This document shows positions 1 to 21,160 of a stretch of DNA of 64,000 nucleotides, in pieces. The position numbers were made by a program, and so were the translations under genes. The DNA is from an uncultured Granulosicoccaceae bacterium. GTDB taxonomy: Bacteria; Pseudomonadota; Gammaproteobacteria; Granulosicoccales; Granulosicoccaceae. Within the stretch, counting starts at the first letter, position 1; every line of letters starts with the position of its first letter. The DNA lies in the NCBI GenBank assembly GCA_938035125.1, contig CALHNS010000019.1, positions 1-64,000 on the forward strand, read 5' to 3'. The notes beneath the pieces are model-generated. The model saw only the letters and a list, made by a program, of their open reading frames with translations. It did not search any database and was not told the DNA's origin.

Positions 1-3000
1 GGTAATCTGGAATGCCGTCACCGTCTGTGTCACCAGCGCCTTCATCAGCATCTGGGATGCCATCACCATCAGCATCATCATCAAGATAATCTGGCGTGCC
101 ATCACCGTCGGTGTCATCAGCGCCTTCTGCAGCATCACCAACGCCGTCACCGTCAGAGTCGGTATCTAAGTTATCGGGGATACCATCACCGTCTGTGTCC
201 CCTGTGCCTTCGTCCGCATCAGGAATGCCATCGCCATCGGCATCTGCATCTTGGCTGTCTGGGATTCCATCGCCATCGGTATCGCCTGCACCTTCTTCAC
301 TATCAGGAATGCCGTCGTTATCTGAATCATCGTCTAAGTAATCCGGAATGCCATCACCGTCCGCATCGCCTGCACCCTCTTCACCATCAGGGATGCCGTC
401 GTTATCCGAATCATCGTCTAGATTATCGGGAATGCCATCGCCGTCAGAATCACCCGTGCCCTCGTCCGCATCAGGAATGCCATCGCCATCCGAATCTGCA
501 TCTTGGCTGTCTGGGATGCCATCGCCATCGGTATCGCCTATACCTTCTTCACTATCGGGTATACCGTCATTGTCCGAATCATCGTCTAAGTAATCCGGGA
601 TGCCATCGCCGTCCGCATCGCCTGCACCTTCTTCGCTATCAGGGATGCCATCGTTATCAGAGTCTTCATCTAAGTTATCTGGAATGCCGTCTCCATCCGC
701 ATCGCCAGTACCTTCTTCGCTATCAGGGATGCCGTCACCGTCGGAGTCTTCATCTAAATAATCTGGAATGCCGTCACCGTCTGTGTCCCCTGCGCCTTCG
801 TCAGCATCGGGAATGCCATCGCCGTCTGAATCGGTATCCAAGTTATCAGGGATGCCATCACCGTCTGCGTCCCCTGTGCCCTCTACATCATCAGGGATAC
901 CATCGCCATCAGAGTCTGTATCTAAGTTATCTGGGATTCCATCGCCATCGGTATCGCCTGCACCTTCTTCGCTATCGGGGATGCCGTCGTTGTCCGAATC
1001 ATCATCTAGGTTATCTGGAATACCATCGCCGTCTGCATCACCTGCACCTTCTTCACTATCAGGGATGCCATCGTTATCGGAGTCTTCGTCTAAGAAATCT
1101 GGAATGCCGTCGCCGTCGGTATCACCGGTGCCTTCGTCCGCATCGGGAATGCCGTCGCCGTCTGAATCGGTATCCAAGTTATCGGGTATGCCATCACCGT
1201 CTGCGTCCCCTGTGCCTTCTTCACTGTCCGGGATTCCGTCGTTGTCAGAATCGGTGTCTAAGTAATCAGGGATACCATCAAGATCTGCATCGGCTGCACC
1301 TTCGTCCGCATCAGGAATACCATCGCCGTCTGAATCTTCGTCTAAGTAATCAGGGATACCATCAAGATCTGCATCGGCTGCACCTTCGTCCGCATCGGGA
1401 ATACCATCGCCGTCGGAGTCTTCGTCTAAGTAATCGGGAATGCCGTCGCCGTCGGTATCACCTGCGCCTTCGTCGGCATCGGGAATGCCGTCGTTATCCG
1501 AATCGGTATCTAAGTTATCAGGGATACCATCGCCGTCTGAATCTGCGGTTCCTTCTTCGCTATCTGGGATGCCGTCGTTGTCTGAATCAGTATCTTGGCT
1601 ATCCGGGATGCCATCGCCGTCGGTATCACCGGCACCTTCTTCACTATCCGGGATGCCGTCGTTGTCTGAATCAGTATCTTGGCTATCTGGGATGCCATCG
1701 CCATCTGCATCGCCTGCACCTTCTTCACTGTCAGGGATGCCGTCGCCATCGGAGTCCTCGTCTAAGTAATCTGGGATGCCATCGCCGTCGGTATCACCGG
1801 CACCTTCTTCACTGTCAGGGATGCCGTCGTTGTCCGAATCATCGTCTAGGTTATCTGGAATGCCGTCTCCATCGGCATCGCCTGTACCTTCTTCACTATC
1901 GGGGATGCCGTCGTTATCTGAGTCTTCATCTAAGTAATCAGGAATACCATCGCCATCAGTATCACCGGCACCTTCTTCACTGTCAGGGATGCCGTCGTTG
2001 TCTGAATCATCGTCTAGGTTATCTGGAATGCCATCGCCATCGGCATCACCTGCACCTTCTTCACTATCGGGAATGCCGTCGTTATCGGAATCGGTATCCA
2101 AGTTATCCGGAATGCCATCACCGTCTGCATCGCCAGTTCCTTCATCCGCATCGGGGATTCCGTCGTTGTCTGAATCGGTATCTAAATAATCAGGAATGCC
2201 ATCAAGATCTGCATCAGCCGTACCTTCGTCCGCATCGGGAATGCCGTCGTTATCGGAATCGGTATCCAAGTTATCCGGAATGCCATCACCGTCTGCGTCC
2301 CCTGTACCTTCGTCCATATCGGGAATGCCGTCGTTATCCGAATCTGTGTCTAAGTTATCAGGAATGCCATCACCGTCTGCGTCTCCTGTGCCTTCTTCAC
2401 TATCGGGAATGCCGTCACCATCGGAATCGGTATCTAAATAATCAGGAATGCCGTCACCATCGGTATCACCATCGCCTTCTTCCGTATCGGGAATACCATC
2501 ACCGTCTGCATCATCATCTAAATAATCAGGAATGCCATCACCGTCTGCATCATCTGTACCTTCATCTGCATCTGGGATGCCGTCACCGTCTGAGTCTGTG
2601 TCCAGAGAGTCGGGGATACCGTCTCCGTCCGAATCAGCGCTACCCTCGACAGTGTCAGGAATCCCATCATTGTCATCATCAGGGTCTGTCGAATCAGGTA
2701 TTCCGTCTGCGTCAGTATCAAGTTCTAACGTTACGTTAAAGTTATCGAGTGTATCGAGTGTATCTGTTGTTGCGCTGAAACCGTCATCATCAACTGCAGT
2801 TATACGCACGCCTACTGGAAAGGTTCCCACATTGTCTGATACATAGGTAAGAGCACTTACATCCCAGCTCGAAATGTCCACCAACTCACTACCTGCAGCT
2901 GACGTGAACGTATTGACTCCATCGCTGATTGTATCTCCAGCAACCACTGTCAGCTCTGTCAATACCGTTTCTGATCCATCAGTATCTGTCAATGTCGTGC

Positions 3001-4864
3001 TAATCGCGGTTGAGATATCCACCGGAACGCGTTGAATGCCGCTTTGATCAGCTGTCGTTACAGCGGCACCATCGACCACTCTTTCCACATCGATGCTGAC
3101 CTCATCAAGCTGATCTTCGAAGGTGATTTCCAAATCGACGTTTTCACCGGAAAAATGCTCGTTAGGAATAAATTCCAGCGTCTCGATGTCTTCCACTGCC
3201 ACTGAAACGATGCCGGTAACCGGATCCTCAATACCTGAAGACAATTCGCCATTCTCAACAGCACCAGCGAAAAGAATGGGCTGAGGCCCTGACCACTGAG
3301 CGGCGAGGGTGAATAGATAGCGGGCAAGGTTATGTCCTGTGCCGTCGATGGTTGGAGCTGTGATAATCAGACCTTCGCTACCGTCTGACAATGTCCCCCT
3401 ATCGAACTTCAGGACTGCGCTAAATTCGTCTAAAAAATCAGCAGCAGCAGAGTGATTAGACACAGCCGAAGGATGGTCAAACAAAGGGGTTCCAAATGGT
3501 ACGTTACGCCAAGAAATCAAATCAGGATCTGATGATCGCATGGTTATAAATGAGCCGGACGTAGTTTCATTAATTAGATCGATAATGAAGGTTGCCGAAC
3601 CTGAATTCTCGTTGGTATCACTGCGACCATTGGCGTTGGTCATGAAAAGTGTGGCGCTGCCTGTCTCGGCGGCTAACGGTACAGCCAATTCGAAAGTGTT
3701 GGCATTTGAGGGATCGTCAATGTAACGCTCCGATACCGCAGTCGTCCCTACGTTCGCCGCAGCTGAGCCGATGGTAAGGCGGGTATAGCTGTTTGCAGAA
3801 TACTGATCTGAATATATGGCTGCATAGGCTGCCGGTCGGGTAATCGTCAACACATCGCCTGCAAGTTCAAATGTGAAATCAGGAAGTACATCTGCATCGG
3901 CTATTACATCACCTATAATATTAGCGCCACTGGACAGTAAAGATACACCCGAAGTTAAGTCGTAATCTGTGAAAGCAAAACTGCTACCGTCATTCTCGCC
4001 AGCACCATCGTGACTATAAATGACACCGCTGGCTAAATTAGTTGCCGAATCGACCACAATATAACCTGCGCTTTTGTCCTCCTCTTGGCCATCAGCACCC
4101 GTCGCGTTAGCGCCGGCCAGATAAATCACGGAGAAATCATGGCCAGCTTCTAGCGGTAGCGCAACACTGGTTTGATTCAGAGGACTTACCGCACTATTGG
4201 CCCCTAAATAATCTGAAGATGTGGCGCTGCTAGTCAAGTACTCAACGTGATACGCCTGATCAACTCGTGCTTGCGAATCCACTATTGATAATGTATTGCC
4301 TGCCAAGGATACAGTCCACTCGGAAGCACCGTCACTTGTGTCACCAATCGGAGCACCACTGGCAGAACCTGATCCTAGAGGTACATCGACGAAAGCGTAG
4401 TTGTCGCCTCCTACAAATTGAGTGATTACATGCGCGATATGGCCAGAGTAAGTCATATTTACAACGTCTACCACGACGCTGCCTCGTTGAAATTCTTCAT
4501 TTTGACTTAATGTAGAACCTGCAACCCCAACACGATCACCACCCATGGATGTGATACGCACAAAGCGTGCGTCTGCAGGTACCGTGAATGTGGTTGCAGC
4601 GGTGCCAGCTGCCGCAGGCCGGTATCCGACCTCACTACCAATGAAATCCAGCTGCGTCCCTCCGCTTAATAAAGCGGGGTCCAGAACCAGACCCAGAGGA
4701 ATACTGGTATCTTCTGTGGTAAAGAGCGTTGGATTGGTAACGGTAACCGCATCCGCCAACGCCTGTGTGCTTGCTAGCGCCATGATTGTTCCGAACACAG
4801 GACGTGCGACAGAACCAGCTAGTTGAAAATTTGTTCGAGAAATTATGGATTTCTTTTTACTCAT
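1..4864 (-). CDS. Giant secreted thrombospondin type 3 repeat protein (C-terminus beyond window)
   Basis: The reading frame is open from an ATG at 4864 down to the left edge, about 1,621 codons without a stop, so the C-terminus is outside the window. I checked the frame at the start, near 3,050, near 2,690 and at positions 1-60. The N-terminus has a lysine-rich start, then a hydrophobic stretch ending in a likely signal peptidase site (about residue 37, ...STQALA/DAV). Residues about 40-710 are Thr/Ser/Asp/Gly-rich beta-type sequence with loosely repeated modules, like bacterial adhesins; I do not recognise a named domain there. From about residue 715 the protein is a continuous TSP3 array (DxDGDGIPDxxE/xLD), whose Asp side chains bind calcium in this family. 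A cell-surface or matrix role is an inference. The gene may be co-evolving with the shorter TSP3 gene at 11374-14757. The array is almost unique in sequence to this locus, so assembly collapse is possible. Confidence 0.9.
2..2720 (-). repeat. 84-bp tandem repeat array encoding paired TSP3 motifs
   Basis: About 32 head-to-tail copies of an 84-bp unit encode 28 residues each. Within each unit two GIPD motifs alternate at 45-bp and 39-bp spacing, for example prolines at 8, 53, 92 and 176, with one replaced by glycine at 137. One half has an EEG/DEG linker and the other an xLD linker. Near-identical blocks recur: a variant unit with Leu instead of Gly before GIPD lies at about 1269, 1353 and 2193, the last two 840 bp (ten units) apart. 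The 5' end of the array, near 2,560-2,720, is the most diverged. Confidence 0.93.
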
Positions 4865-5700
4865 CGACACAGCGTAGGCCACTGCGTTTTTCTTGAACTT
4901 AAGTAATTCTTGGTATTTTTCGTTCCTAGACTTTGCTGACACAGCCAGCTCACTGGCTCGAGAAGGTGAACGAACTGTGAATAAGCTGCGCACCGCAGCG
5001 AACCGGTTTCGGTTTCTTCTGCTTCGGTTAGCAAGTCGCTGCATTAATCGTTGGTGTCTTCTAAATTTCATAGTTCGCTTAGCTCTGCGTTTTCATCGCT
5101 GTAAACAAACACTGCTTAGGCATCAAATTTAGGCCTTACAACGCAGTTCGTTTCGCAATGTCAATTGGAGAAGTACAGTTTCGGCTCTGTACTACGTTCA
5201 AAGTACTGAAATCAATTCTGGCAAGTACAAAGAACGACAGCCGGAGTTGATCAAATTCAAAACTCTTTAACGTTCTCGAATATTGGCCATATGACCTCAC
5301 CAAATTTTCGAAACACTTCTAATAAACAATCCTCACCGCCGGTAGCGACTCATTTCGCATATGCTTAAAATGGCTGGCAAGTTTGACCAACCCCAAAATG
5401 ATAAGTGGGTCACTTTATCGATCACTATCAGCCAAATAACCGCGTGTTAAGAATTGCCTTTGGCGACTAAGTACTGCGCAAACGCTGGTTTTACGCCGTG
5501 CCAAGAGGCATCTAGAGGCAAACCCATTGCCACAACAATTTACATTCAGGGGTCAATTTCATCGTTCGGCGCTGCGCCTAAAACACATACATCCGATGGA
5601 TCGGCGGCTTTTTAATTGGTGTAGTGATGATTAGCGGTGCGGGCTTCAAAATTGCATTACTCATCCAAACCCTACTTAGTGTTTTTTAGGGGAATCAGCG
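4865..5700. other. 836-bp non-coding stretch
   Basis: This lies upstream of the giant TSP3 gene (leftward) and the FixH-like gene (rightward) and should hold their promoters. I found no convincing long gene. Two perfect inverted repeats are visible: AGCCAG-4 nt-CTGGCT at 4943-4958 and AGTACAG-8 nt-CTGTACT at 5172-5193. Neither is followed by a T-run, so they are not typical terminators. The part from about 5340 to 5640 reads like interrupted coding sequence, but I could not identify a family. Confidence 0.5.
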
Positions 5701-5763: not shown

Positions 5764-6171
5764 ATGAAAAGTACATCCATCCTATTTGCGTTGGTATTAC
5801 TTGCCCAAGTAGCCACCGCTCAAAAAGATCCGCAGGTTTTGCATGCTTCAACAGAGCAGGGAATGTTTGCGCTTTCGCTTCAGCCCAGTAACGGTGAACC
5901 CGTGATCGGTGAGTATCACAGCTGGGTGGTTCACCTTAGAGATAAAAATAATATTGAAGTAGATAATGCAGAATTTCTTATTGATGGGGGTATGGCTGAA
6001 CACGGCCATGGCTTACCCACTCAGCCAAGGGTGACACGCTATCTTGGTGATGGAAAATACTTGATTGAAGGCTTGTTGTTTAACATGGCAGGCAGCTGGA
6101 CTCTAGCCATAACTGTAAGACATAACCATGTCATCGACAGCACCCTATTTAACATGACAATAAATCATTAA
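5764..6171 (+). CDS. FixH/YtkA-like periplasmic protein
   Basis: This 135-residue protein starts with a signal peptide (cleavage near residue 19, ...QVATA/QKD). The rest is a single small beta-sandwich-type domain with the pattern GMAEHGHGLPTQP and a later FNMAGSW segment, typical of FixH/YtkA-like domain proteins. Members of this group are often encoded next to cytochrome c peroxidases and may bind metal or assist redox proteins in the periplasm, but their role is not established. The HGH residues (about 79-81) could be metal ligands. Its stop codon overlaps the next start by one base (TAATG), so the two genes form a translationally coupled pair. Confidence 0.75.
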   Translation: MKSTSILFALVLLAQVATAQKDPQVLHASTEQGMFALSLQPSNGEPVIGEYHSWVVHLRDKNNIEVDNAEFLIDGGMAEHGHGLPTQPRVTRYLGDGKYLIEGLLFNMAGSWTLAITVRHNHVIDSTLFNMTINH

Positions 6172-7406
6172 TGATTCGCATCATCGGTTTACTCCTTGTA
6201 CTAATTAGCCAGGTCGCGATCGCGTCTGACACCTTATGGAGTGAAACCGAACTTCGCATTATAGAATCATTATCGATAAACCAAATCCCTAAGCGCCCTA
6301 TTAGTCCTTCCAACCAGTTTGCTAATAACGCTTTAGCTCAAGAGCTAGGGAAAAAGCTATTTTTTGATACTCAATTTAGTGGTAATAAGCAGCTCTCTTG
6401 TGCATCCTGCCACCAACCCGATAAATTTTTCACCGACGGGCTACCTTTAGCACGGGGGCTTCATGCCACGGGTCGTAATACCCCTACTGTTGTAGGAAGC
6501 GCATGGCAACGATGGTTTTATTGGGACGGACGAAAAGATTCCCTGTGGTCGCAAGCATTGATACCTTTTGAAGCACCCAATGAAATGGGAGGCAACCGAG
6601 TATCAGTTGTGAATACCATTTTCTCAGATAAGCAATACCGAGAAACCTACGAAAACCTTTTTGGCCCTTTTCCTAAAACGCTTAAGCATGCCGAGTTAAC
6701 CTTGGAGGCAGGCCCAATAGGAACCAAAGTAATGCAATCGCGTTGGAAAAAGCTGAATAAAGAAACGCAAGAATCCATTGACCGTGTTTACGTCAACATT
6801 GGTAAATCGCTTGCTGCATATCAAAGAACGTTGAGCTATCAAGCCACATCGTTTGATCATTACGCAGCGCAGCTAAAAGAAAACAACAATTCGAATAAAA
6901 AGTTAAAGAAAAACGCAATTAAATCTTTATTAACAGACGATCAAATTGCAGGCTTGAAACTGTTCATCAACCCTGAAAAAACATCATGCTTACAATGCCA
7001 CAACAGCGCCCTATTCACTAATCGGGGTTTTCACAATGTGGGCTCGGGAACATTCAGCGGCGCATCACTCGATTTTGGGCGCATGCTGGGGTTGCAGGCT
7101 GTTTTATTAGATGAATTCAACTGTTTAGGACCATACAGTGATGCTAATCCAAGTGAATGCACATCGCTTAATTACTTGAATAGGCGACAACATATACCGT
7201 TAAAAGGTGCTTTTAAAACGCCAGGGCTTCGAAACTTACGCAGCACTTCCCCATACTTTCACGATGGTCGTTTTAAGTCGTTGGAGGAAGTCGTTAATTT
7301 TTACAACAATCCACCAACCGACAATGGACCTCACGAATTATCACCACTGGGTTTAACGCGAGAAGAAGTTTCTCAGCTGGTGCATTTTCTAGATTCTCTG
7401 AATTAG
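6171..7406 (+). CDS. Di-haem cytochrome c peroxidase (MauG/CcpA family)
   Basis: This 411-residue protein has a short signal peptide (residues 1-19) and two c-type haem motifs, CASCH at 77-81 and CLQCH at 273-277. This is the layout of bacterial di-haem peroxidases, where one haem receives electrons and the other reduces hydrogen peroxide to water. Other family features are NTPTVVGSAW near 104, WDGRKDSLWSQA near 118 and the C-terminal TPGLRNLRSTSPYFHDG, followed by a conserved end segment. It should act in the periplasm with small c-type cytochrome donors. It is coupled to the FixH-like gene and faces the copper radical oxidase gene, a potential source of peroxide. A MauG-like oxidase role cannot be excluded. 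Confidence 0.9.
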   Translation: MIRIIGLLLVLISQVAIASDTLWSETELRIIESLSINQIPKRPISPSNQFANNALAQELGKKLFFDTQFSGNKQLSCASCHQPDKFFTDGLPLARGLHATGRNTPTVVGSAWQRWFYWDGRKDSLWSQALIPFEAPNEMGGNRVSVVNTIFSDKQYRETYENLFGPFPKTLKHAELTLEAGPIGTKVMQSRWKKLNKETQESIDRVYVNIGKSLAAYQRTLSYQATSFDHYAAQLKENNNSNKKLKKNAIKSLLTDDQIAGLKLFINPEKTSCLQCHNSALFTNRGFHNVGSGTFSGASLDFGRMLGLQAVLLDEFNCLGPYSDANPSECTSLNYLNRRQHIPLKGAFKTPGLRNLRSTSPYFHDGRFKSLEEVVNFYNNPPTDNGPHELSPLGLTREEVSQLVHFLDSLN

Positions 7407-7492: not shown

Positions 7493-9364
7493 TTACATTG
7501 AACCAATAAATGGCTGTATATCTTGCTTAACGATGGATGGCCCTTGTATCGATACATCCAGTGTATTAAGCCCCGTTCTTTCGAAGAAGGTCACCACGAC
7601 ATCGTGAGCACCGGCACTGAGATTGAGCGCTCCTTGCTTCTCTTTTGCCCCATGTAAACCATCATTGTCGACCACTAAGTTGCCATTGATAAACAACTGG
7701 CTACCATCATCAGATTTAGTGAAGAATGTATAGGCACCTGCATCAGTAATATTTAGCGATGCACTGAATCGATAAGCAAAGTTATCTTCCCGCTGTGCAG
7801 TCGCTAAACTAAAGTCGGTTTGATTACCTGTTGCCACTGGCGTTAAGCTATCAAAATCAGGCAAATTAGCCCAAACACCCTCATAGTATTCGTATGCAAC
7901 AAGATCCGTCGTAGAATTCGGCGGTTGTTGTACTGGAGGCGGCGTTACCGTTGAAGGTGATTGATTTAAAAATGCTTGCACAGGCTGCTTGGCCATTGTT
8001 GGCCCTTGTATCTGTACATCCAGATTATTAAGCCCTGTTCGTTCAAAGAACGTCACCACTATGTCATGTGTGCCCGCATTGAGGTTAACCACACCTTGGC
8101 GTTCTCGCGCTCCGTGCAAACCATCGTTATCAACCACTAACGCACCATCGATGAACAACTGACTACCATCATCAGATTTTGTAAAGAAAGTATAAGCACC
8201 TGCATCGGTTATATTCAGCGATGCACTAAATCGATACGCAAAGTTATCCGCGCGTTGTGCTGTAGCTAAACTAAAATCGTCTTGATTGCCTGTTGCCACA
8301 GGCGTTAAGCTGTCAAAATCAGGCAATTTTGACCAGATACCTTCGTAGTATTCGTAAGCAACCGCACCTACAGTTGGTTCTGGTGGTTGTACCTGCGCAG
8401 GTGGTGTAACCAAATCAGGCTGAAGCACAAGAAAGGCATGCACATCTTGCTTGGCAAGTAAAGGCCCTTGCATTTGCACATTCAGTGTATTTAAGCCTAA
8501 TCGCTCAAAATAGGTTACCTTAATTTCGTGCACACCAGCGGTAAGGTTGATCACCCCTTGTTTCTCAATTGCTCCGTGTAAGCCGTTGTTATCTACCACT
8601 AGGTTGCCATTGACAAAAAGCTGGCTTCCATCATCGGATCGGGTAAAAAAGGTGTAATCACCTGCAACAGCAATTTCTAATGATGCAGTGAACCGATAAG
8701 CAAAGTTATCTTCTTGTTGAGCTGCAGCTAAACTGAAATCGTCCTGATAGCCTGTGGACACCGGGGGTAGGTTGTCAAAATTTGGCAAGGCAGCCCACAT
8801 ACCTTCAAAATATTCATAAGCAACGAGGCCCGCAGGTGGTTGTGGTTGTGGTTGTGGTTGTGGTTGGGTTTGGGTCTGCGGTTGAGGCTGCGCAGGTGGC
8901 ATTGCCGAACCTTGCGAAGGCTCAGGTTGGGTTACTGAGCCATCCGCACCTTGATTGTTAGTTTGAACTAAGAACGTTTGCACATTTTGCTTAGCTATCG
9001 ATGGCCCTTCCATTGTCACATTTAGGGTGTTACCCCCTGCTCTTTCAAAATAGGTCACCACAATTTCATGGGTGCCAGCGTTAAGATTTATAGAGCCTTG
9101 TTTTTCTGTAATTGCGTGCAAGCCGTCATTGTTAACGACTAAGTCACCATCAATGAACAACTGACTGCCATCATCGGATTGAGTGAAGAAGGTATAAGCA
9201 CCGGCATCAGTTATTTCCAATTCGGCTGTAAATTTAAACGCAAAATTATCAGCACGTTGAGCAGTCGATAAGCTGAAGTCTGTTTGATTACCAAAAGCCA
9301 CTGGTGTCAAGTTGTCAAAATTCGGCAGCTTGGTCCATACGCCTTCGAAATATTCATATGACAC
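7493..9364 (-). repeat. Four tandem PA14-encoding repeats
   Basis: Four copies of a ~400-bp segment lie at about 7493-7897, 7967-8362, 8426-8824 and 8966-9364. Each encodes the order YEYxEGxWxxLPxFDxL, then TFFTxSDDGSQLF, then GLH, then TYFER or TFFER, and a final GPxxAKQ or GPxxVKQ. The two copies nearest the C-terminus are most alike, suggesting recent duplication. The linkers differ in length and are rich in Pro, Gln and Thr. Confidence 0.88.
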
Positions 9365-11134
9365 ACCGCTGAGCATCTCTTGCGCAGCCCCAATGTCGAC
9401 AGGTTCTTGTGCGCTTAAATCGCCCACTTCTGCAACAACTGGGTTGATCATAAGCGTTGAACCTTCCGAAGGAACTCCATCAGCATTTAACCCAAAAACC
9501 CAATAATTTCCAGGGATAAGCACATTAGCGTTCGATGGCAATTGCACGTCATAATTGCCCGGACTGGTTTCAAAAAAGTCTAATGGGATGTAACGTTGAT
9601 CGGTTGTGTGATGATGTGTTAGCGCAACTAAGCGAACCATCGAGAACGATCCCATTCCTGGGGTTGCAACAAGGCTAAGCGTATCTCCAGCAATAGCGTT
9701 CGTTGGGCCACTGCTAATTTGCGGCCGTGTAGCGGGCGTTCCATCCTCATTAAATAAATAAGGTGGTTCAAATATTTCACCATTTTGTTGGTTAATATTG
9801 CAGTCACCACACAATCCGCCACCCATCGCTGCAACCCGGCCGTCTTTTAGCAGTAGTGCGGTTGAGTGATAGTTGCGTGGCACCCGATGAGGAGCAAGCT
9901 CTTCCCATTGTCCTGTGGCTGGGTCCCAAAGTTCAGGAATTAACTGTGTGCCCACATCAGAAAATTGTCTTCCACTGCTGTTACCACCAATAACCAACAC
10001 TTTGCCATTGGGTAAAACGACAGAATTCTGCATTGCACGCGGGTAGGTCATCGATTCTATTGGTGTAATAACCGGCGCGCTACCATTTAAATCGATAGTC
10101 ATAGCCGTATTCACTGCTGGCTCGCCCCCACCAGCAATAAGCATTTTGCCAATGTCGTACATCACCGTTGTGTTGTACAAACGTGAGCTATGGTTCTCTT
10201 CTCGCTTACCGTAGTGGGTAATAACCGAATCGTTGTTGTACAAATCGAGGCTAAACAGCTCACTGGTGGGCCCAGGATGAAACAAGGTTCCATCAGGTGC
10301 TACGTTTAACGCAGGAAACCACCAACGACTAGCCTCAGAGGTCGTATCATCATTTCTAACCGATTCCAAGTTCGCTTCAGGCATAAGCTCCCAGCCTTCA
10401 TCTTGGGTCCAAAGCTCTGATACACCGGTGGTTCTTGAACCTAACGCGGTAAATACTTGGCCGCTGGGCAAGGTGGTGGACTGCGGATACCAACGCGGCT
10501 CGTTTAGCGGATCGGATAAATTCCAACTGTTACCATCAAAGATGCTGTTGGTTGTGATGGTTCGACCACCACCTGGCGTGAACACACTTCCGTCAGCCAA
10601 CATAGCAACACCTGCGCAAAAATTATTATGATTCTCATTTGGCATGTCGGTGAAGGTTTCTGTCACCGGATCAAAAATAGAACCAAAGGTGTAATTACGC
10701 GTGCCACCAAAGTCATCAGCGAACGAAGCTGACCAGGTTAGCACTCGGCCATCGGGCAAGTTCGCAGCGCCGGTGGCAATCTCAGGCCAATCGATTAAAT
10801 CATTCCAACGCCCAAGATTTATGTTTTCAGTGATAGGGTGAGCTGCGCCAAGTTCTGGGGGAATTTCAAATGCGGGTTCACCCTTGGCAAGCTCTTTAGC
10901 CAGTTCATCACCTTCTAACGTATCCAGAAAGGCCAGATATTCTTCCAGTTCGGTATCGCTACTAGAGCCGTTGAGCTGATCGCCTTCACCTTCGTTCTCA
11001 GTATTCGATTCAGCGCCGCCTTCAACACCTGCAATAAGTTCAGAATTATCGGGTAAGCCAACCACGCTACCACCATCGCACGCGGTTAGCGCTATGGCCA
11101 TCAGTGAATACGCAAGAACAGTTCTTATCTGCAT
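7493..11134 (-). CDS. Galactose-oxidase-like copper radical oxidase lipoprotein with four PA14 domains
   Basis: The 1,213-residue protein begins with a lipoprotein signal; the lipobox LTAC puts the lipidated cysteine at 19, followed by Asp at +2. Residues about 105-465 are kelch-type repeats and 470-565 are the DUF1929 early-set domain, the galactose oxidase/glyoxal oxidase architecture. All active-site positions align with the fungal enzyme: Cys173 (FCAG) and Tyr216 (RWYPQ) for the thioether cofactor, Tyr422-His423 (NYHS, followed by GGGLCGDC) and His507 (THHHTTDQR). This predicts oxidation of a primary alcohol or aldehyde with release of hydrogen peroxide; the substrate is unknown. Four PA14 domains at about 591-723, 771-903, 925-1056 and 1080-1213 probably bind carbohydrate. 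They are joined by Pro/Gln linkers. Confidence 0.88.
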   Translation of the reverse strand: MQIRTVLAYSLMAIALTACDGGSVVGLPDNSELIAGVEGGAESNTENEGEGDQLNGSSSDTELEEYLAFLDTLEGDELAKELAKGEPAFEIPPELGAAHPITENINLGRWNDLIDWPEIATGAANLPDGRVLTWSASFADDFGGTRNYTFGSIFDPVTETFTDMPNENHNNFCAGVAMLADGSVFTPGGGRTITTNSIFDGNSWNLSDPLNEPRWYPQSTTLPSGQVFTALGSRTTGVSELWTQDEGWELMPEANLESVRNDDTTSEASRWWFPALNVAPDGTLFHPGPTSELFSLDLYNNDSVITHYGKREENHSSRLYNTTVMYDIGKMLIAGGGEPAVNTAMTIDLNGSAPVITPIESMTYPRAMQNSVVLPNGKVLVIGGNSSGRQFSDVGTQLIPELWDPATGQWEELAPHRVPRNYHSTALLLKDGRVAAMGGGLCGDCNINQQNGEIFEPPYLFNEDGTPATRPQISSGPTNAIAGDTLSLVATPGMGSFSMVRLVALTHHHTTDQRYIPLDFFETSPGNYDVQLPSNANVLIPGNYWVFGLNADGVPSEGSTLMINPVVAEVGDLSAQEPVDIGAAQEMLSGVSYEYFEGVWTKLPNFDNLTPVAFGNQTDFSLSTAQRADNFAFKFTAELEITDAGAYTFFTQSDDGSQLFIDGDLVVNNDGLHAITEKQGSINLNAGTHEIVVTYFERAGGNTLNVTMEGPSIAKQNVQTFLVQTNNQGADGSVTQPEPSQGSAMPPAQPQPQTQTQPQPQPQPQPPAGLVAYEYFEGMWAALPNFDNLPPVSTGYQDDFSLAAAQQEDNFAYRFTASLEIAVAGDYTFFTRSDDGSQLFVNGNLVVDNNGLHGAIEKQGVINLTAGVHEIKVTYFERLGLNTLNVQMQGPLLAKQDVHAFLVLQPDLVTPPAQVQPPEPTVGAVAYEYYEGIWSKLPDFDSLTPVATGNQDDFSLATAQRADNFAYRFSASLNITDAGAYTFFTKSDDGSQLFIDGALVVDNDGLHGARERQGVVNLNAGTHDIVVTFFERTGLNNLDVQIQGPTMAKQPVQAFLNQSPSTVTPPPVQQPPNSTTDLVAYEYYEGVWANLPDFDSLTPVATGNQTDFSLATAQREDNFAYRFSASLNITDAGAYTFFTKSDDGSQLFINGNLVVDNDGLHGAKEKQGALNLSAGAHDVVVTFFERTGLNTLDVSIQGPSIVKQDIQPFIGSM
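8836..8866 (-). repeat. Hexanucleotide repeat encoding Gln-Pro
   Basis: About five copies of GGTTGT on the plus strand encode a PQPQ run (residues about 755-768) in the linker between the first and second PA14 domains of the copper oxidase. Six-base units keep frame when copy number changes, so linker length could vary without breaking the gene. Confidence 0.75.
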
Positions 11135-11281: not shown

Positions 11282-11325
11282 CAAAAAAAAGGGCATCGTT
11301 TTTATTTAAACGATGCCCTTTTAAT
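11282..11325 (-). terminator. Rho-independent terminator after the second TSP3 gene
   Basis: A perfect hairpin (AAAAGGGCATCGTTT and its complement around a short AT loop) is followed on the minus strand by eight T residues. It lies 48 bp beyond the stop of the gene ending at 11374 and insulates it from the copper oxidase gene on the same strand. Confidence 0.88.
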
Positions 11326-15319: not shown

Positions 15320-15751
15320 TTAAAACTCGGACGGTAAACTGCTTTTTATTTTCTGCACATGAGCTTCGATAAAATCTCGATCCTCATCACCAATAGATTC
15401 AAACGCGATTCGATAAGTGGGCTTATCACCATCGGCAATTTCAGGGGCATTGTTCGCTGATACCACACGCGCATCGGCAGTGACGGTGCGTTTTGATGGG
15501 AACAAGGTGATCTCCACAGTAATAAGTTCACCAGGTTGCATCAATGTTTCATGGGCAAACGCCAACCCAACAGAGGAAATGCTGCATTTGTGCGACGGCG
15601 CATCAATTCGAGATGAAGCCGATTGGGCTGCGGGCGCATCACCCGCTGCCGGCTTATCTTGCAAGCGAGTGATATGAATGCCAACAGCATCCTGCACACG
15701 ATCCGCTCTACGCCGTTCATTGACTACCGCTGGGCCTGAGGTTTGTGACAT
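15320..15751 (-). CDS. PilZ-domain protein
   Basis: The 143-residue protein has RRRADR near residue 13, matching the RxxxR motif of c-di-GMP-binding PilZ domains. A second motif, SISSVG, near residue 77 resembles (D/N)xSxxG but has Ser at the first position. The remainder, with PGELITVEI and VTADARVV segments and ending near FIEAHV, fits the small beta-barrel fold. It is cytoplasmic. It may link c-di-GMP to surface attachment, which would suit the neighbouring surface proteins, but this is inference. The altered second motif could weaken nucleotide binding. Confidence 0.75.
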   Translation of the reverse strand: MSQTSGPAVVNERRRADRVQDAVGIHITRLQDKPAAGDAPAAQSASSRIDAPSHKCSISSVGLAFAHETLMQPGELITVEITLFPSKRTVTADARVVSANNAPEIADGDKPTYRIAFESIGDEDRDFIEAHVQKIKSSLPSEF

Positions 15752-15831
15752 TTTCGGGTCCGCTTAGTGTTGTGTGTTCATAGTGTAGTTGCCAATCAAA
15801 GCATGCGAGTTCGCTATACTGTAATTGGCAA

Positions 15832-15908
15832 GTCTCGGTAGCTCAGCTGGATAGAGCAGCCCCCTCCTAAGGGGCAGGTCGGGGGTTCGAATCCCTCCCG
15901 GGACGCCA
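15832..15908 (+). tRNA. tRNA-Arg(CCT)
   Basis: The 77-nt gene folds as a cloverleaf with acceptor stem GTCTCGG paired to CCGGGAC (one G-T pair), a loop CTCCTAA giving anticodon CCT, a TTCGAAT T-loop and an encoded CCA. A TATACT element at 15815-15820 lies 11 bp upstream, with a TTGCCA 20 bp further away, as a possible promoter. Confidence 0.95.
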
Positions 15909-15960
15909 ATCTGGCGGCCCGCCCTCTGAAGCATACAACGTTCGCATACAACGTTTATGC

Positions 15961-17193
15961 CTATTCCAGTTTGTCAAACCCTTGATGGGTAATGGCTGTG
16001 GTGTCGTCCAAACGAGGATGCGAGGCTTTAAATTCTTCCGTTAAGTTGCTCGATTTATCCATCTCAAGTAACGTCTCTTTCAGTACGTGAATGGCTGCCA
16101 GCACATCGCCGGTATGGCCCGATTCGGAAATGGTGTGCATGTTTCGTGTAGGAAACCCCACCGATGTTGCCGCACAATCAATACTTGCTAACACACCCGC
16201 CATGCCATCGGTGCCGGTATCACGGCCACTAACATCCACCTGCATGGGAATATCATGGGCTTTTGCAGCCGTTTTAATTCTTGAATTCAATTGTTCGCTA
16301 ACAATTGCACCCGTGGTTAAGGTAAATCCTTTGCCCATGGTTAGTGGTTGCATCTTCCTATCACCAATTCCAGGAGCTGCAACGTAATCGTGATTCACAT
16401 CTACTGCGATTACAGCATCTGGTTGATGAACGCCGGCAATTACTCGGCTACCGAACCGCCCAATTTCTTCGTGCGAGGCAATAGCGAACATACAGCGAAC
16501 GTTGTTCGTACCTCCAGCTTCTGCAATGAGGCGAGCAAGTTCTGCGGTGACAAAACAACCCAAACCGTTATCAAGGTAGGCGCCGTAAAAAGTGTCCGGG
16601 CTAAATCCTCGTTTTATTGGCCGATCAAGCAGCAGTGTGTCGCCAGGTTTTACCCCTAAACGTTTTATTTGATCCGCCTTGTTTTTCCCATGCACTTGAA
16701 GATCAAGATACAGCTGAGTGGGTCGAATGCCTTTGTCGCCTGTGCGCTGTGCAGGGTCAGAAAAGTGAATGGCCCCCATCGCCTCAACCGTACCGCCCGA
16801 CAAAGAACGATAGCGGCCAGGGGTATCTGGGTCTTCACTAAACAACGTCACTTCATGGCCAATTAGCGTGCACGGTAGGAATGAATCGCTGTTGATCCAC
16901 ACTTTGCCATCGGAGCCAATGTTGCGCACTTGCATGCGAATTTTGTCGGCGTGACCGATTATCATCACAGAAAATTTTTCATCATCACCTGGGTGCGTAT
17001 CCCAAACAACGCTTGCGTTGCCGGTATGTTGATGCATGGCCCAACTGCTTGGCATGAAAGATTCAAAGTACGGTTTCAACACACCCAGCGTCATCGCCGA
17101 TTCCAAACCAACCGGGCTGGGCGCAGCAATAATGCGCTTCATCAAGTCAAATTGGGGTTCCGGCATGGATTGGGTCCAAACTGCATCGCTCAC
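15961..17193 (-). CDS. M42-family metallopeptidase
   Basis: This 410-residue cytosolic peptidase starts at GTG 17193 with GGGAG about 9 nt upstream. It has M42 motifs in order: GHADKIRMQV (metal-binding His), YLDNGLG (bridging Asp), ASHEEIG (catalytic Glu pair), AVDVNHD and RNMHTISESGH (C-terminal metal His). M42 enzymes are dinuclear aminopeptidases that form large tetrahedral particles and trim peptides. Annotation as endoglucanase in some databases is historical. It probably completes breakdown of imported peptides. Its neighbours are not obviously linked. Confidence 0.9.
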   Translation of the reverse strand: MSDAVWTQSMPEPQFDLMKRIIAAPSPVGLESAMTLGVLKPYFESFMPSSWAMHQHTGNASVVWDTHPGDDEKFSVMIIGHADKIRMQVRNIGSDGKVWINSDSFLPCTLIGHEVTLFSEDPDTPGRYRSLSGGTVEAMGAIHFSDPAQRTGDKGIRPTQLYLDLQVHGKNKADQIKRLGVKPGDTLLLDRPIKRGFSPDTFYGAYLDNGLGCFVTAELARLIAEAGGTNNVRCMFAIASHEEIGRFGSRVIAGVHQPDAVIAVDVNHDYVAAPGIGDRKMQPLTMGKGFTLTTGAIVSEQLNSRIKTAAKAHDIPMQVDVSGRDTGTDGMAGVLASIDCAATSVGFPTRNMHTISESGHTGDVLAAIHVLKETLLEMDKSSNLTEEFKASHPRLDDTTAITHQGFDKLE

Positions 17194-17249
17194 GTCAATG
17201 TTCTCCCAGAAAAATTAAGTTAATTTACGTAAATTTGTACGGGTAATTC

Positions 17250-18140
17250 TTAAGTATGTCGGCCACGGTAGCGGCCCACCGCGATACCGGACAGAATTAA
17301 CACTAACGCAACCCAAGTGATAGCCGCAGGCCATTCATTAAGCATAAGCCACGCCCAAAAAACTGCAAACACCGGTATTAAATAACCCGCGTTTGACATA
17401 AAGATGGCACCGTTAATTTTCACGATTTCTGCGCGCAATAAATAAGCCGCCGCCGTTGGGCCAATAGCCAAAAATACAACCGCAAGCCAAGCATCTCTAC
17501 CACCCGTTTGCTGCCAAGGCGGATGTAACCAAAACAGTAATGGAATGAGAAAACAGCAGCTCGTCAATAAGGACCCTAAGACGATGGCGAAAGTTCGCAA
17601 ATGTGACAACCGCCGAATCAATAGGCTTGAAAAGGCATAACAAAAGGCCGCTAACAGAATTAGCATCATGCCAAAGGTAGAACCTGGATTTACCGCGGCA
17701 TCGTGCCCTAGCAGCACCAGAACCCCAATAAAACCCAGTATTAACCCAAAAAACTTGTAGCGTGTGATTTTGTCGTCTGATGTCATGTAATGCGAAAGCA
17801 CTAAGGTGGTAAACGGCGTTGTGGCGATGAGAATGGCCGTTGTGGCACTGTCTACACTCCGTTGACCAAGACCAATTAACGTAAACGGCACAGCACTGTT
17901 CAGTAACCCAATTCCAGTGAACAAAATCCAGCTGGTTTTGTCCCACGGAAGCCGAACTTTTCTAAAGGCGCAAATTATGAGAACCAGTACTGTGGCAAGG
18001 CTCACACGCCAAGCGGTGATGGCCAATGGTGAAAAATCGACCAAGGCGATGGTGTTGCATAAAAACGATGTGCCCCAGATCGCGCTTACGAGCATCAATC
18101 GGGCTATATCCCACGCATTAGGCGCTCTTATAACTGTCAA
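17250..18140 (-). CDS. EamA-type DMT transporter
   Basis: The 296-residue protein has ten predicted hydrophobic segments arranged as two EamA halves, with the typical SAIWGTSF near the N-terminus and QRSVDSATTAILIATTPF in the first half. The start is TTG at 18140, supported by AGG about 7 nt upstream. It is an inner-membrane drug/metabolite transporter; the substrate cannot be told from sequence. It is divergent from the GH20 gene, with a 68-bp intergenic region. Confidence 0.88.
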   Translation of the reverse strand: MTVIRAPNAWDIARLMLVSAIWGTSFLCNTIALVDFSPLAITAWRVSLATVLVLIICAFRKVRLPWDKTSWILFTGIGLLNSAVPFTLIGLGQRSVDSATTAILIATTPFTTLVLSHYMTSDDKITRYKFFGLILGFIGVLVLLGHDAAVNPGSTFGMMLILLAAFCYAFSSLLIRRLSHLRTFAIVLGSLLTSCCFLIPLLFWLHPPWQQTGGRDAWLAVVFLAIGPTAAAYLLRAEIVKINGAIFMSNAGYLIPVFAVFWAWLMLNEWPAAITWVALVLILSGIAVGRYRGRHT

Positions 18141-18208
18141 AATATTGCCTAGGGCTCATTGCAAGGTGATTAGTACCACACGGCAACAAGCCATCCGCAA
18201 GGCATAAT

Positions 18209-21160
18209 ATGATTCATTCAATAGTACGCAGAGCCGCCATGTTTCGTTCAATTAAATTATCCATGTGTCTTGCCGCCGTTTTTAGCCTTAGCGCTTGCGG
18301 CAGCAGCGACAGTGATTCAGGCGATGGAGGTATTGTTAACAATCCTTCTGTTTCTGGTGATTCGAACACACCTGCCGCACCTGTCATCGTGGATCAAGGC
18401 CCAGGCCCTATTTCCCCGCCAACGAACAACACACCACAGGCGCCCATTGATTCAGGCAATGCCCCTACTTCCAGCGCCAATTCAGATATCGTCGCCTCTT
18501 TAAGCCACGCAGGCACTTTGATAGCAACAGGCCCAGCCGCTGGTATTAATGATCCGCTGGTATCAAGCGAAGGCAGAAGCCGAGCCGCAGCCCTTCCTCA
18601 GCCGTTGGGCGTGATGATGGAAGCCGTTGAAAATCATTCAGGTGACACAGGCGTTAGCTGCAAAGAGCTCGGCGCCGAATTCGCCTCATGCAGCGTGTTG
18701 AATTTACACATTAAAGATGGCAATGGGGTTTTAACCAATAACAACTGGAAAATCTACTTCCATAGCATTCGCCGCGTGCTGCGGGTTGACAGCGATCAGT
18801 TTGACGTTGTGTTAGTCAACGGTGATTTGAATTACATCACCCCGGCGGCAAATTTCCAACCGTTCGCTGGCGATGTGGCCAGTATCAAATTAATCACCGA
18901 ATTTAATTACTTGGTGGAAACTGATTTTATGCCGCGCTTTTGGTTGGTTCAAGAAGGTGGTGCGCCTGAACTTATCGCGAACACCGACAGCGAGACCGAT
19001 GAGAACGCTTATGCGTTAGAAATTCGTGGGCTGAACGCCAAAGCATGGGACCAAGAGCCCAACCCTTTAGCAACATCAACCACCCGATTTAGTAAAAATC
19101 AACCCGTCTCTACAGAAGCTAACGCCTTAAGTGCGCAAGACATACAACGTCGTGTGATACCACAAGTAAGCTCTCTTACTACCAGCGCAGGCACGGTATC
19201 TATAGCCAACGGCTTAGACTTTTCTGGCGGTGACTTATCAACCAATTCTGTTGCGGCTGTTCATGCACGGGCTGCCCAATTTTCAAGTAGCGCAAGAGGC
19301 ACGCCGGTATCAACCACACTGAACCCTAATCTTGCAGCGAACACTTACACGCTAAACATTAACGCCTCTGGAATTGCCATAACCGGTCAATCAGATGCCG
19401 ATTTATTCTACGGTGCACAAACCGTGTTAAGCCTAGTGCAACCCGGTGTTGGCACCTTACCGTATGTTTCTATCACCGATTCTCCACGCTTTGACTTTCG
19501 CGGTATGCACATCGACGTTGCCAGAAACTTTCATTCGTTGGATACGTTAAAGAAACTGGTTGACCAGATGGCCGCTTATAAGATGAATAAGCTGCACATG
19601 CATCTATCAGACGATGAAGGTTGGCGCTTAGAAATACCTGGCTTACCTGAACTGACACAAGTGGCTGCTCAGCGTCAATTCCAGCTTGATGCCGAAGGTA
19701 ACGTGACAGAGCGCTTTAGTCTAATGCCTCAGTTAGGTTCAGGCCCAAGCACCAACAACCAAGGCACAGGCTTTTACACTCGCGCACAGTTTATTGAATT
19801 ACTAAACTACGCCCAAGCTCGCCATGTTGATGTTATCCCTGAAATCGATATGCCAGCTCACGCACGAGCTGCCGTGGTTGCGATGCGTGCACGCGCTGCA
19901 AACTTAGGTAACCCTAATGACATCAATGTGCGCATTGATGATCCTGAAGACACCTCAAGATACCTTACCGTGCAGCACTACGATGACGGCATCATCAACC
20001 CCTGTGTACCAGGCACCTATAACTTTTTGAACACTGTGGTTACTGAAGTGGTTGCAATGTACAACGACGCTGGCTTGCAGTTAGAAGTGTTTCATATGGG
20101 TGGTGATGAAGCGAAGAACGTTCTTGAAGGCATAGGTTTTGAGGATATAACCTCTGGCGGCACTGTGCCTTGGCAAGGTAACACCGACAAAAGCCTAACC
20201 GACTTCCCTTGGGAGCGATCTCCTGCTTGCGCAAACTTAATTGCAACGAATGCATCGGTTGCTGATCGCGGCGCGATTACCCCTTATTTCATTGAACGTG
20301 TTGCAGAAATTGTGGCTGATGCTGGCGTACCTGCCCTTTACGCTTATCAAGATATCTACCGTGAAGATTCTGCCAACGGCAACTATGAAGTTTCACCAGA
20401 CGATTTAGCCACCACTCGTGCCGGGGTTGGTTTTTGGGAAATCATTTGGGATGGTGGTTTCAACACAGCTAATCTGTATTCCAACCTAGGGTTTGAAACG
20501 GTCATCGCTGTGCCCGATTATTTATACTTTGACTTCCCGTATGAAGTGGATCCAAAAGAGCGCGGCTTTTACTGGGCCACTCGTTTCACCGATACACACA
20601 AAGTATTCACTTTCGCACCCGAGAATTTACCGCAAAACGCAGAAACATCTGTTAATCGTGACGGCAGTGCTTGGTCGGCAACCGGTGATGTAGCTAACCA
20701 AGGGTTCATTGGTATGCAAGGCCAGCTTTGGAGTGAAACTGTGCGCACCCCTGAACAGTTTGACTACATGGTGTTCCCAAGATTGCTGGCTTTGGCCGAG
20801 CGCGCTTGGCACAAAGGCATTTGGGAAAACGATTACGAAGTGGGTGTTACCTACTCCGGCACCACAAATCGGGTGAACAAGAACGCTTTGAACGCAGACT
20901 TTGCAGGCTTCGCAGCGGCGCTGGGCACAAAAGAGCTACTTAAGTTAGACGCTGCGGGTATTCAATACCGTATTCCTGTACCGGGCACATCAGGTACTAC
21001 AGCAAATGTTGCCTTCCCTGGCTTACCGATTGAATACAGCGTTAATGGATCCACTTTTATCACATCACAAAACGGCGTTATTGATGCATCCGCTACGGCT
21101 ATCCGAGCACGATCGGCCGATGGTAGTCGAGCGGGAAGATCAACACTGATTACTCAGTAA
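18209..21160 (+). CDS. GH20 beta-N-acetylhexosaminidase lipoprotein
   Basis: The 983-residue protein begins with a lipoprotein signal (lipobox SLSAC, Cys about 30) and a Ser/Asp/Pro-rich linker. Then come an N-terminal chitobiase-type carbohydrate domain (about 110-280), a GH20b segment (about 310-420), and the (beta/alpha)8 catalytic domain with FRGMHIDVARNFH, HLSDDEGWRLEIPGL and HMGGDE, giving the catalytic Asp633-Glu634. A CHB_HEX_C-like end follows. It removes terminal GlcNAc from chitooligosaccharides or glycans at the cell surface. ATG 18209 was chosen for its AAGG ribosome binding site; ATG 18239 would also give a functional signal. The adjacent transporters may import products. Confidence 0.93.
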   Translation: MIHSIVRRAAMFRSIKLSMCLAAVFSLSACGSSDSDSGDGGIVNNPSVSGDSNTPAAPVIVDQGPGPISPPTNNTPQAPIDSGNAPTSSANSDIVASLSHAGTLIATGPAAGINDPLVSSEGRSRAAALPQPLGVMMEAVENHSGDTGVSCKELGAEFASCSVLNLHIKDGNGVLTNNNWKIYFHSIRRVLRVDSDQFDVVLVNGDLNYITPAANFQPFAGDVASIKLITEFNYLVETDFMPRFWLVQEGGAPELIANTDSETDENAYALEIRGLNAKAWDQEPNPLATSTTRFSKNQPVSTEANALSAQDIQRRVIPQVSSLTTSAGTVSIANGLDFSGGDLSTNSVAAVHARAAQFSSSARGTPVSTTLNPNLAANTYTLNINASGIAITGQSDADLFYGAQTVLSLVQPGVGTLPYVSITDSPRFDFRGMHIDVARNFHSLDTLKKLVDQMAAYKMNKLHMHLSDDEGWRLEIPGLPELTQVAAQRQFQLDAEGNVTERFSLMPQLGSGPSTNNQGTGFYTRAQFIELLNYAQARHVDVIPEIDMPAHARAAVVAMRARAANLGNPNDINVRIDDPEDTSRYLTVQHYDDGIINPCVPGTYNFLNTVVTEVVAMYNDAGLQLEVFHMGGDEAKNVLEGIGFEDITSGGTVPWQGNTDKSLTDFPWERSPACANLIATNASVADRGAITPYFIERVAEIVADAGVPALYAYQDIYREDSANGNYEVSPDDLATTRAGVGFWEIIWDGGFNTANLYSNLGFETVIAVPDYLYFDFPYEVDPKERGFYWATRFTDTHKVFTFAPENLPQNAETSVNRDGSAWSATGDVANQGFIGMQGQLWSETVRTPEQFDYMVFPRLLALAERAWHKGIWENDYEVGVTYSGTTNRVNKNALNADFAGFAAALGTKELLKLDAAGIQYRIPVPGTSGTTANVAFPGLPIEYSVNGSTFITSQNGVIDASATAIRARSADGSRAGRSTLITQ

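Follow-up and report, generated by a model that had tools for sequence, protein, structure and literature searches.

A PA14-bearing bacterial copper radical oxidase and its possible coupling to YtkA-like and MauG-type proteins

Copper radical oxidases require a one-electron oxidation for activity. They have been activated in vitro with horseradish peroxidase (PMC9770985), and the natural activating partner found in the literature comes from plant-pathogenic fungi. In Colletotrichum, the gene for the copper radical oxidase AlcOx lies in tandem with the gene for a haem enzyme, Perox, and activation of AlcOx by this peroxidase was followed by activity titration and electron paramagnetic resonance (PMC9770985). 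In the mtoX-SCO1-mauG operon, genes for a copper chaperone and MauG, sometimes fused, adjoin the gene of a copper oxidase, methanethiol oxidase (PMC5739008). Here, we analyzed a 64,000-nucleotide stretch of DNA (the window; GCA_938035125.1, contig CALHNS010000019.1, positions 1 to 64,000) from an uncultured Granulosicoccaceae bacterium. It carries a gene, P0001, for a putative copper radical oxidase lipoprotein with a PA14 array, beside genes for a YtkA-like protein and a MauG-type di-haem enzyme. The window thus places a copper radical oxidase gene beside a haem enzyme gene, as in Colletotrichum. However, Perox is a fungal class II peroxidase of different origin whose activating role was shown, while the window partner is a di-haem, MauG-type protein. 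Like the mtoX operon, the window holds genes for a copper oxidase, a candidate copper chaperone and MauG, although the proteins there are an SBP56 methanethiol oxidase and SCO1 rather than a copper radical oxidase and YtkA.

P0001 (1213 amino acids) occupies exactly positions 7493 to 11134 on the minus strand, and the plus strand across this interval is full of stops. The first-pass annotation of this stretch had proposed the same coordinates and had read the product as a bacterial copper radical oxidase whose Cys-Tyr/His ligand set is complete; sequence and fold both back that proposal. The catalytic domain (residues 102 to 564; 9443..10831, minus strand, as are all P0001 features below) comprises a kelch propeller and a galactose oxidase (GalOx)-like E-set domain, and Pfam recovered both the Kelch motif and the galactose-oxidase E-set (3.5e-17). 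The five residues named in that annotation were found where it had put them and align with the copper and cofactor ligands of GalOx: Cys173 (10616..10618) with the thioether partner Cys228, Tyr216 (10487..10489) with the radical tyrosine Tyr272, Tyr422-His423 (9866..9871) with Tyr495-His496, and His507, the first residue of His507-His508-His509 (9608..9616), with His581. The flanking GGGLCGDC, also pointed out earlier, recurs letter for letter in GalOx. Along with the Cys-Tyr cofactor and ligand positions, P0001 shares with the Fusarium enzyme (AA5_2) the equivalents of F194 and F464. In the window clade, two nearly invariant histidines come directly after the ligand His507, giving a THHH(T/S/A)TDQ motif that marks the clade. 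A second metal or proton site at His508/His509 is an attractive but unproven idea.

By phmmer, P0001 matched the galactose oxidase of Pseudoarthrobacter siccitolerans at E = 3e-88, far above chance. The catalytic domain, modelled with AlphaFold from 17 relatives, reached a predicted local distance difference test score (pLDDT) of 85.7 and a predicted template modelling (TM) score of 0.89. A Foldseek comparison of this model gave a TM score of 0.91 to the Pseudoarthrobacter enzyme (9g43), 0.89 to 0.90 to GalOx and 0.81 to 0.82 to Streptomyces GlxA. The Pseudoarthrobacter enzyme (9g43, 9g8h), with the same fold and ligands, is thus the best match to P0001 in both sequence and structure. GlxA likewise shares the bacterial AA5 fold and the same copper-ligand set. 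In the Pfam test for AA5_1, P0001 scored 28.5 bits against Glyoxal_oxid_N, under the gathering score of 37.5. Its best NCBIfam match was the GlxA equivalog NF052501, but with 136 bits where the cut-off is 800. This agrees with the earlier remark that such homologues are under-annotated, as do plasmid homologues labelled as "discoidin" or "RICIN" proteins or left without annotation. Sequence and predicted fold together establish the catalytic scaffold and ligand set, and we consider P0001 very probably a copper radical oxidase, with radical chemistry presumed from these features. Its architecture would also suit a catalytically dead kelch/PA14 adhesin, but none of the catalytic domains compared has lost any of the five ligand residues, which makes such a protein hardly credible.

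The remainder of the protein suggests attachment to a surface. A signal peptide with the lipobox LTAC (11078..11134), read from the sequence, predicts a lipidated Cys19 followed by Asp at +2, and other family members inspected also have the lipobox. Pfam recovered all four of the C-terminal PA14 modules proposed earlier (1.4e-58), at residues 585 to 724 (8963..9382), 766 to 904 (8423..8839), 920 to 1058 (7961..8377) and 1074 to 1212 (7499..7915). The array had been called unusual, a description that does not survive comparison with its relatives. The window clade has 100/100 support in our tree, and each of its nine members there has at least one PA14 domain at the C terminus; copy number ranges from one to five per protein. 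The trait is therefore clade-wide rather than an oddity of P0001. We expect the array to bind a polymer. Neither Fusarium GalOx nor the matched Pseudoarthrobacter chain has a PA14 array (none being visible in the latter).

The Trp290/Arg330 pair is a key indicator of galactose 6-oxidases (PMC11267884). P0001 has Arg234 and Ser269 at these positions, in an alignment that is loose locally around R330, and it lacks the Tyr405/Gln406 loop. We rejected galactose specificity on the replacement of the Trp/Arg pair, which both Fusarium GalOx and the Pseudoarthrobacter enzyme possess, and consider galactose an unlikely substrate. The window genome contains four copper radical oxidase genes, and one paralogue (G000:C33, 31851-33284; L034) keeps the Trp/Arg pair. 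This paralogue falls with GalOx and the Pseudoarthrobacter enzyme in the tree, apart from the window clade. Because P0001 lacks the pair and the paralogue that has it falls in the GalOx group, the expected substrate class of P0001 is a primary alcohol or aldehyde other than galactose. The paralogue offers a natural positive control for activity on galactose.

The first-pass annotation took the PA14 array to point to a glycan substrate, and P0001 may indeed be a glycan-modifying enzyme like Streptomyces GlxA, oxidizing the cell's own or algal polysaccharide during attachment. The PA14 array and the surface lipoprotein fit this idea, as does a Marinobacter relative that lies among genes read from their sequences as glycosyltransferase-like and exosortase-like. 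The window's bacterial family, to which relatives of P0001 belong, is abundant on kelp (PMC9238374). Against this, we recognized no polysaccharide-synthesis genes beside the window gene, the cslA linkage of GlxA was not seen at the locus, and the score against the GlxA equivalog falls far under its cut-off. We regard a GlxA-like role as possible but doubtful; it concerns the substrate and is compatible with the activation mechanism set out below.

Those relatives of the best matches that carry names are uncultured Granulosicoccaceae. Among 48 genomes from this family, 37 had matches, with up to 11 per genome, some of them to PA14 only.

The neighboring genes, which the first-pass annotation left undiscussed, are the more informative feature of the locus. 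One of them encodes a YtkA-like secreted protein of 135 amino acids (5764..6171, plus strand; PF13115, 35.6 bits against a cut-off of 25.9), and no other PF13115 gene was found in the genome. The predicted model of this protein (pLDDT 92.5) matched CrdA of Helicobacter pylori, a Cu/Ag-binding protein, with a TM score of 0.81 normalized by target and 0.66 by query. Met77, His80, His82 and Met108 are invariant across 19 homologues. In Bacillus, YtkA/CtaK acts in CuA assembly (PMC13344008).

The ytkA stop is overlapped by a gene for a MauG/CCP-type di-haem c enzyme of 411 amino acids (6171..7406, plus strand), with CxxCH at residues 77 and 273. This gene is convergent with P0001, 86 bp separating the two stops. 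The protein scored 148.8 bits against PF03150 (cut-off, 25.6) and is one of three clear CCP_MauG proteins found in the genome. Within the stretch that aligns with bacterial cytochrome c peroxidase (BCCP), it has Tyr (LEEVVNFY) where BCCP has Met (LEQAVETM), at a position that we take to be the ligand of the second haem. The di-heme enzyme 6e1c also has Tyr here (LEEVIDIY), as do the aligned MauG homologues of the oxidase group. The two CxxCH motifs, the superfamily and this Tyr are common to MauG/MbnH di-haem enzymes, and the signature suggests that the window protein is of the MauG/MbnH type rather than BCCP. It scored 132.5 bits against TIGR03791, the model for MauG sensu stricto of tryptophan tryptophylquinone biosynthesis, under the cut-off of 443.85, and 132 bits against the MbnH equivalog, under the cut-off of 363.

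Sequence comparison also couples the relatives of P0001 to di-haem proteins. Many relatives are 1700 to 3200 amino acids long and consist of the oxidase domain, then a YVTN-type propeller and then a di-haem domain. In 17 of them, the fused domain matches CCP_MauG and has two CxxCH motifs about 130 residues apart. These fused domains are clearly homologous, and their axial position holds His, not Tyr, in all 16 aligned. In the tree, the fused oxidases make up two well-supported clades, which lie on either side of the window's PA14-array clade, and one long-branch sequence, L171. In the second fused clade, a MauG gene lies within 0.8 kb of the oxidase, in various orientations, at all six loci with usable flanks (G033, G091, G471, G807, G897 and SZUA-146). 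MauG likewise adjoins the oxidase in Marinobacter salarius, within about 2.5 kb. MauG is joined by a YtkA gene in G033, G091, G807 and M. salarius. No YtkA gene was detected in G471 or G897, and in SZUA-146 the contig breaks off within MauG. The oxidase and propeller-di-haem regions form a single ORF (open reading frame) in G471 and G897 and are split over three ORFs in M. salarius. The M. salarius oxidase itself lies in overlapping ORFs (L061, 10756-10807), where a frameshift or a sequencing error is possible.

A tree of the MauG proteins separates them at a branch with 97/98 support. One side holds the MauGs that adjoin oxidases, together with the MauGs of most genomes that have an oxidase, and the window MauG belongs to this oxidase-associated subfamily. 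On the other side are MauGs near copper amine oxidases, nucleotidase-like proteins or LVIVD propellers. In a class-level sample of 369 genomes, an oxidase was present in 4 of the 5 genomes with this MauG subfamily and in 4 of the 364 others (Fisher, 5e-7), and in the window's own family, the oxidase-type MauG co-occurred with fused oxidases (9/13 versus 4/35; Fisher, 2e-4), though these values and counts ignore shared ancestry, which must be set against the coupling. Among the 121 genomes of the G471 family, the oxidase query and the MauG query picked out an identical set of nine. Six of the nine belong to one genus (g473), and the MauGs examined there fall on the other branch, unlinked to an oxidase and next to LVIVD propellers. 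We therefore downgraded this perfect 9/9 co-occurrence and counted only three linked loci, at which the family's three MauGs of the oxidase-type subfamily all adjoin its three fused oxidases. Targeted full-text searches, with preprints and most subscription papers outside their scope, returned no report of a copper radical oxidase coupled to MauG or another di-haem protein. As far as this literature shows, the coupling has not been described before.

We propose the following mechanism for the window locus. P0001 would be a surface-anchored AA5-type enzyme in which Tyr422, His423 and His507 hold the copper and Cys173-Tyr216 forms the radical cofactor. It would oxidize its primary alcohol or aldehyde while reducing O2 to H2O2, with the PA14 array keeping it on a polymer or surface. 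The YtkA-like protein would deliver the copper. A one-electron reduction would put the oxidase into the inactive Cu(II)-tyrosine state, and the MauG-type enzyme, fed by H2O2 from the oxidase, would oxidize this state back to the active Cu(II)-tyrosyl radical. These roles of YtkA and MauG are argued by analogy, that of MauG with Perox and with horseradish peroxidase in vitro, and we hold the explanation as a whole with about even confidence. For the fused relatives, YtkA and MauG are likely functional partners. P0001 is unfused, its neighboring MauG is convergent, and its orthologues lack such a neighbor; the case for partnership is therefore weaker here than for the fused clade. For P0001 itself, we consider the partnership plausible, a little short of an even bet.

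Several observations, besides the shared ancestry mentioned above, weigh against this mechanism. The window locus is the only PA14-array locus with readable flanks that has a MauG nearby. Conservation of MauG beside direct orthologues of P0001 was tested and not found, and this MauG subfamily was not found in the orthologue-bearing genomes G010, G018, G039 and G040. The window mauG does not form an operon with the oxidase gene. The nine loci of the first fused clade have no adjacent MauG. Related YtkA-MauG pairs also stand beside copper amine oxidases, LVIVD propellers and nucleotidase-like proteins. Finally, galactose oxidase forms its thioether with copper and O2 alone, so that a maturase is chemically dispensable.

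Many of these points would suit an oxidase that acts alone as an H2O2-generating lipoprotein, with the convergent YtkA-MauG pair a chance neighbor serving another secreted protein. The isolated orthologues, the gene orientation and the unrelated partners of other pairs all agree with this, as do G236 and G340, where the genes for oxidases and for this type of MauG are found on different contigs. However, the window MauG falls in the oxidase-associated subfamily, that subfamily is closely tied to oxidase-bearing genomes, and the pair includes the only YtkA found in the genome. We give a solitary oxidase a substantial minority chance. The di-haem partner might instead accept electrons, the copper radical centre then working as a dehydrogenase, or remove H2O2, rather than activate the oxidase. 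Covalent attachment of the haem domain in the fused relatives and its axial His (16/16) would suit electron transfer, and Marinobacter-type genomes have both a fused haem domain and a separate MauG. P0001, in contrast, has no fused haem domain, its neighbor has the MauG/MbnH-type Tyr, and known AA5 enzymes reduce O2 directly; we consider this role improbable.

Beyond copper radical oxidases, YtkA and MauG could act as a two-part module of general use, by which secreted copper oxidases whose cofactors derive from tyrosine would be loaded with copper and activated or matured by oxidation. We offer this tentatively and think it rather unlikely. Equally tentative is a client list of copper radical oxidases, partly with fused di-haem domains, and the copper amine oxidases of the G121 locus, which would make the module a bacterial counterpart of the fungal peroxidase-oxidase pair. 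At the G121 locus (L133, G121:C38, 9363-14654), the YtkA-MauG pair comes immediately after two proteins with copper amine oxidase domains (Cu_amine_oxid, 2e-44 and 2e-36), of which, as judged by eye, one keeps Tyr at the topaquinone position and the other does not. A single ORF encodes a YtkA-MauG fusion at L073 (888-2624) and L103 (6010-8055), which come from two genomes of one family, and again at L135. The pair stands beside large nucleotidase/metallophosphatase-like secreted proteins at L134, L135 and L143 and beside LVIVD propeller proteins at L217, L218 and L220.

Upstream of P0001 lies a gene for a secreted protein with TSP3-like DxDxDG repeats, P0002 (11374..14757, minus strand), which has no Pfam match. 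Its C-terminal hydrophobic stretch and basic tail may be a sorting signal, and the protein is probably unrelated to the oxidase. Direct reading of the intervening DNA revealed a hairpin with a 12-base loop and a T-run (GGGCATCG...CGATGCCC-T8; 11283..11318, minus strand), a likely terminator whose loop size kept it off the list of a hairpin scan. Because this structure lies between the two genes, we ruled out an operon of P0001 with P0002. A further minus-strand ORF (2-5071), which runs off the contig start, has more than 60 TSP3-like DxDxDG repeats of the calcium-binding type, and its antisense strand contains long open frames. Genes for PilZ, M42 peptidase, EamA and GH20 proteins at 15320-21160 are syntenic with the orthologous oxidase loci L045, L046, L047 and L052, at all of which the oxidase is inverted relative to the window.

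The P0001 family represents a marine bacterial AA5 branch distinct from the galactose oxidases; single genomes of the bacterial family, which is common on seaweed, hold as many as 11 database matches. With a fused or adjacent di-haem enzyme and a copper-binding YtkA, the long-open question of bacterial activation becomes directly testable, and the fused or adjacent module may offer biotechnology a self-contained, activatable oxidase. If a di-haem protein does switch on the copper enzyme, this would answer how bacteria activate copper radical oxidases.

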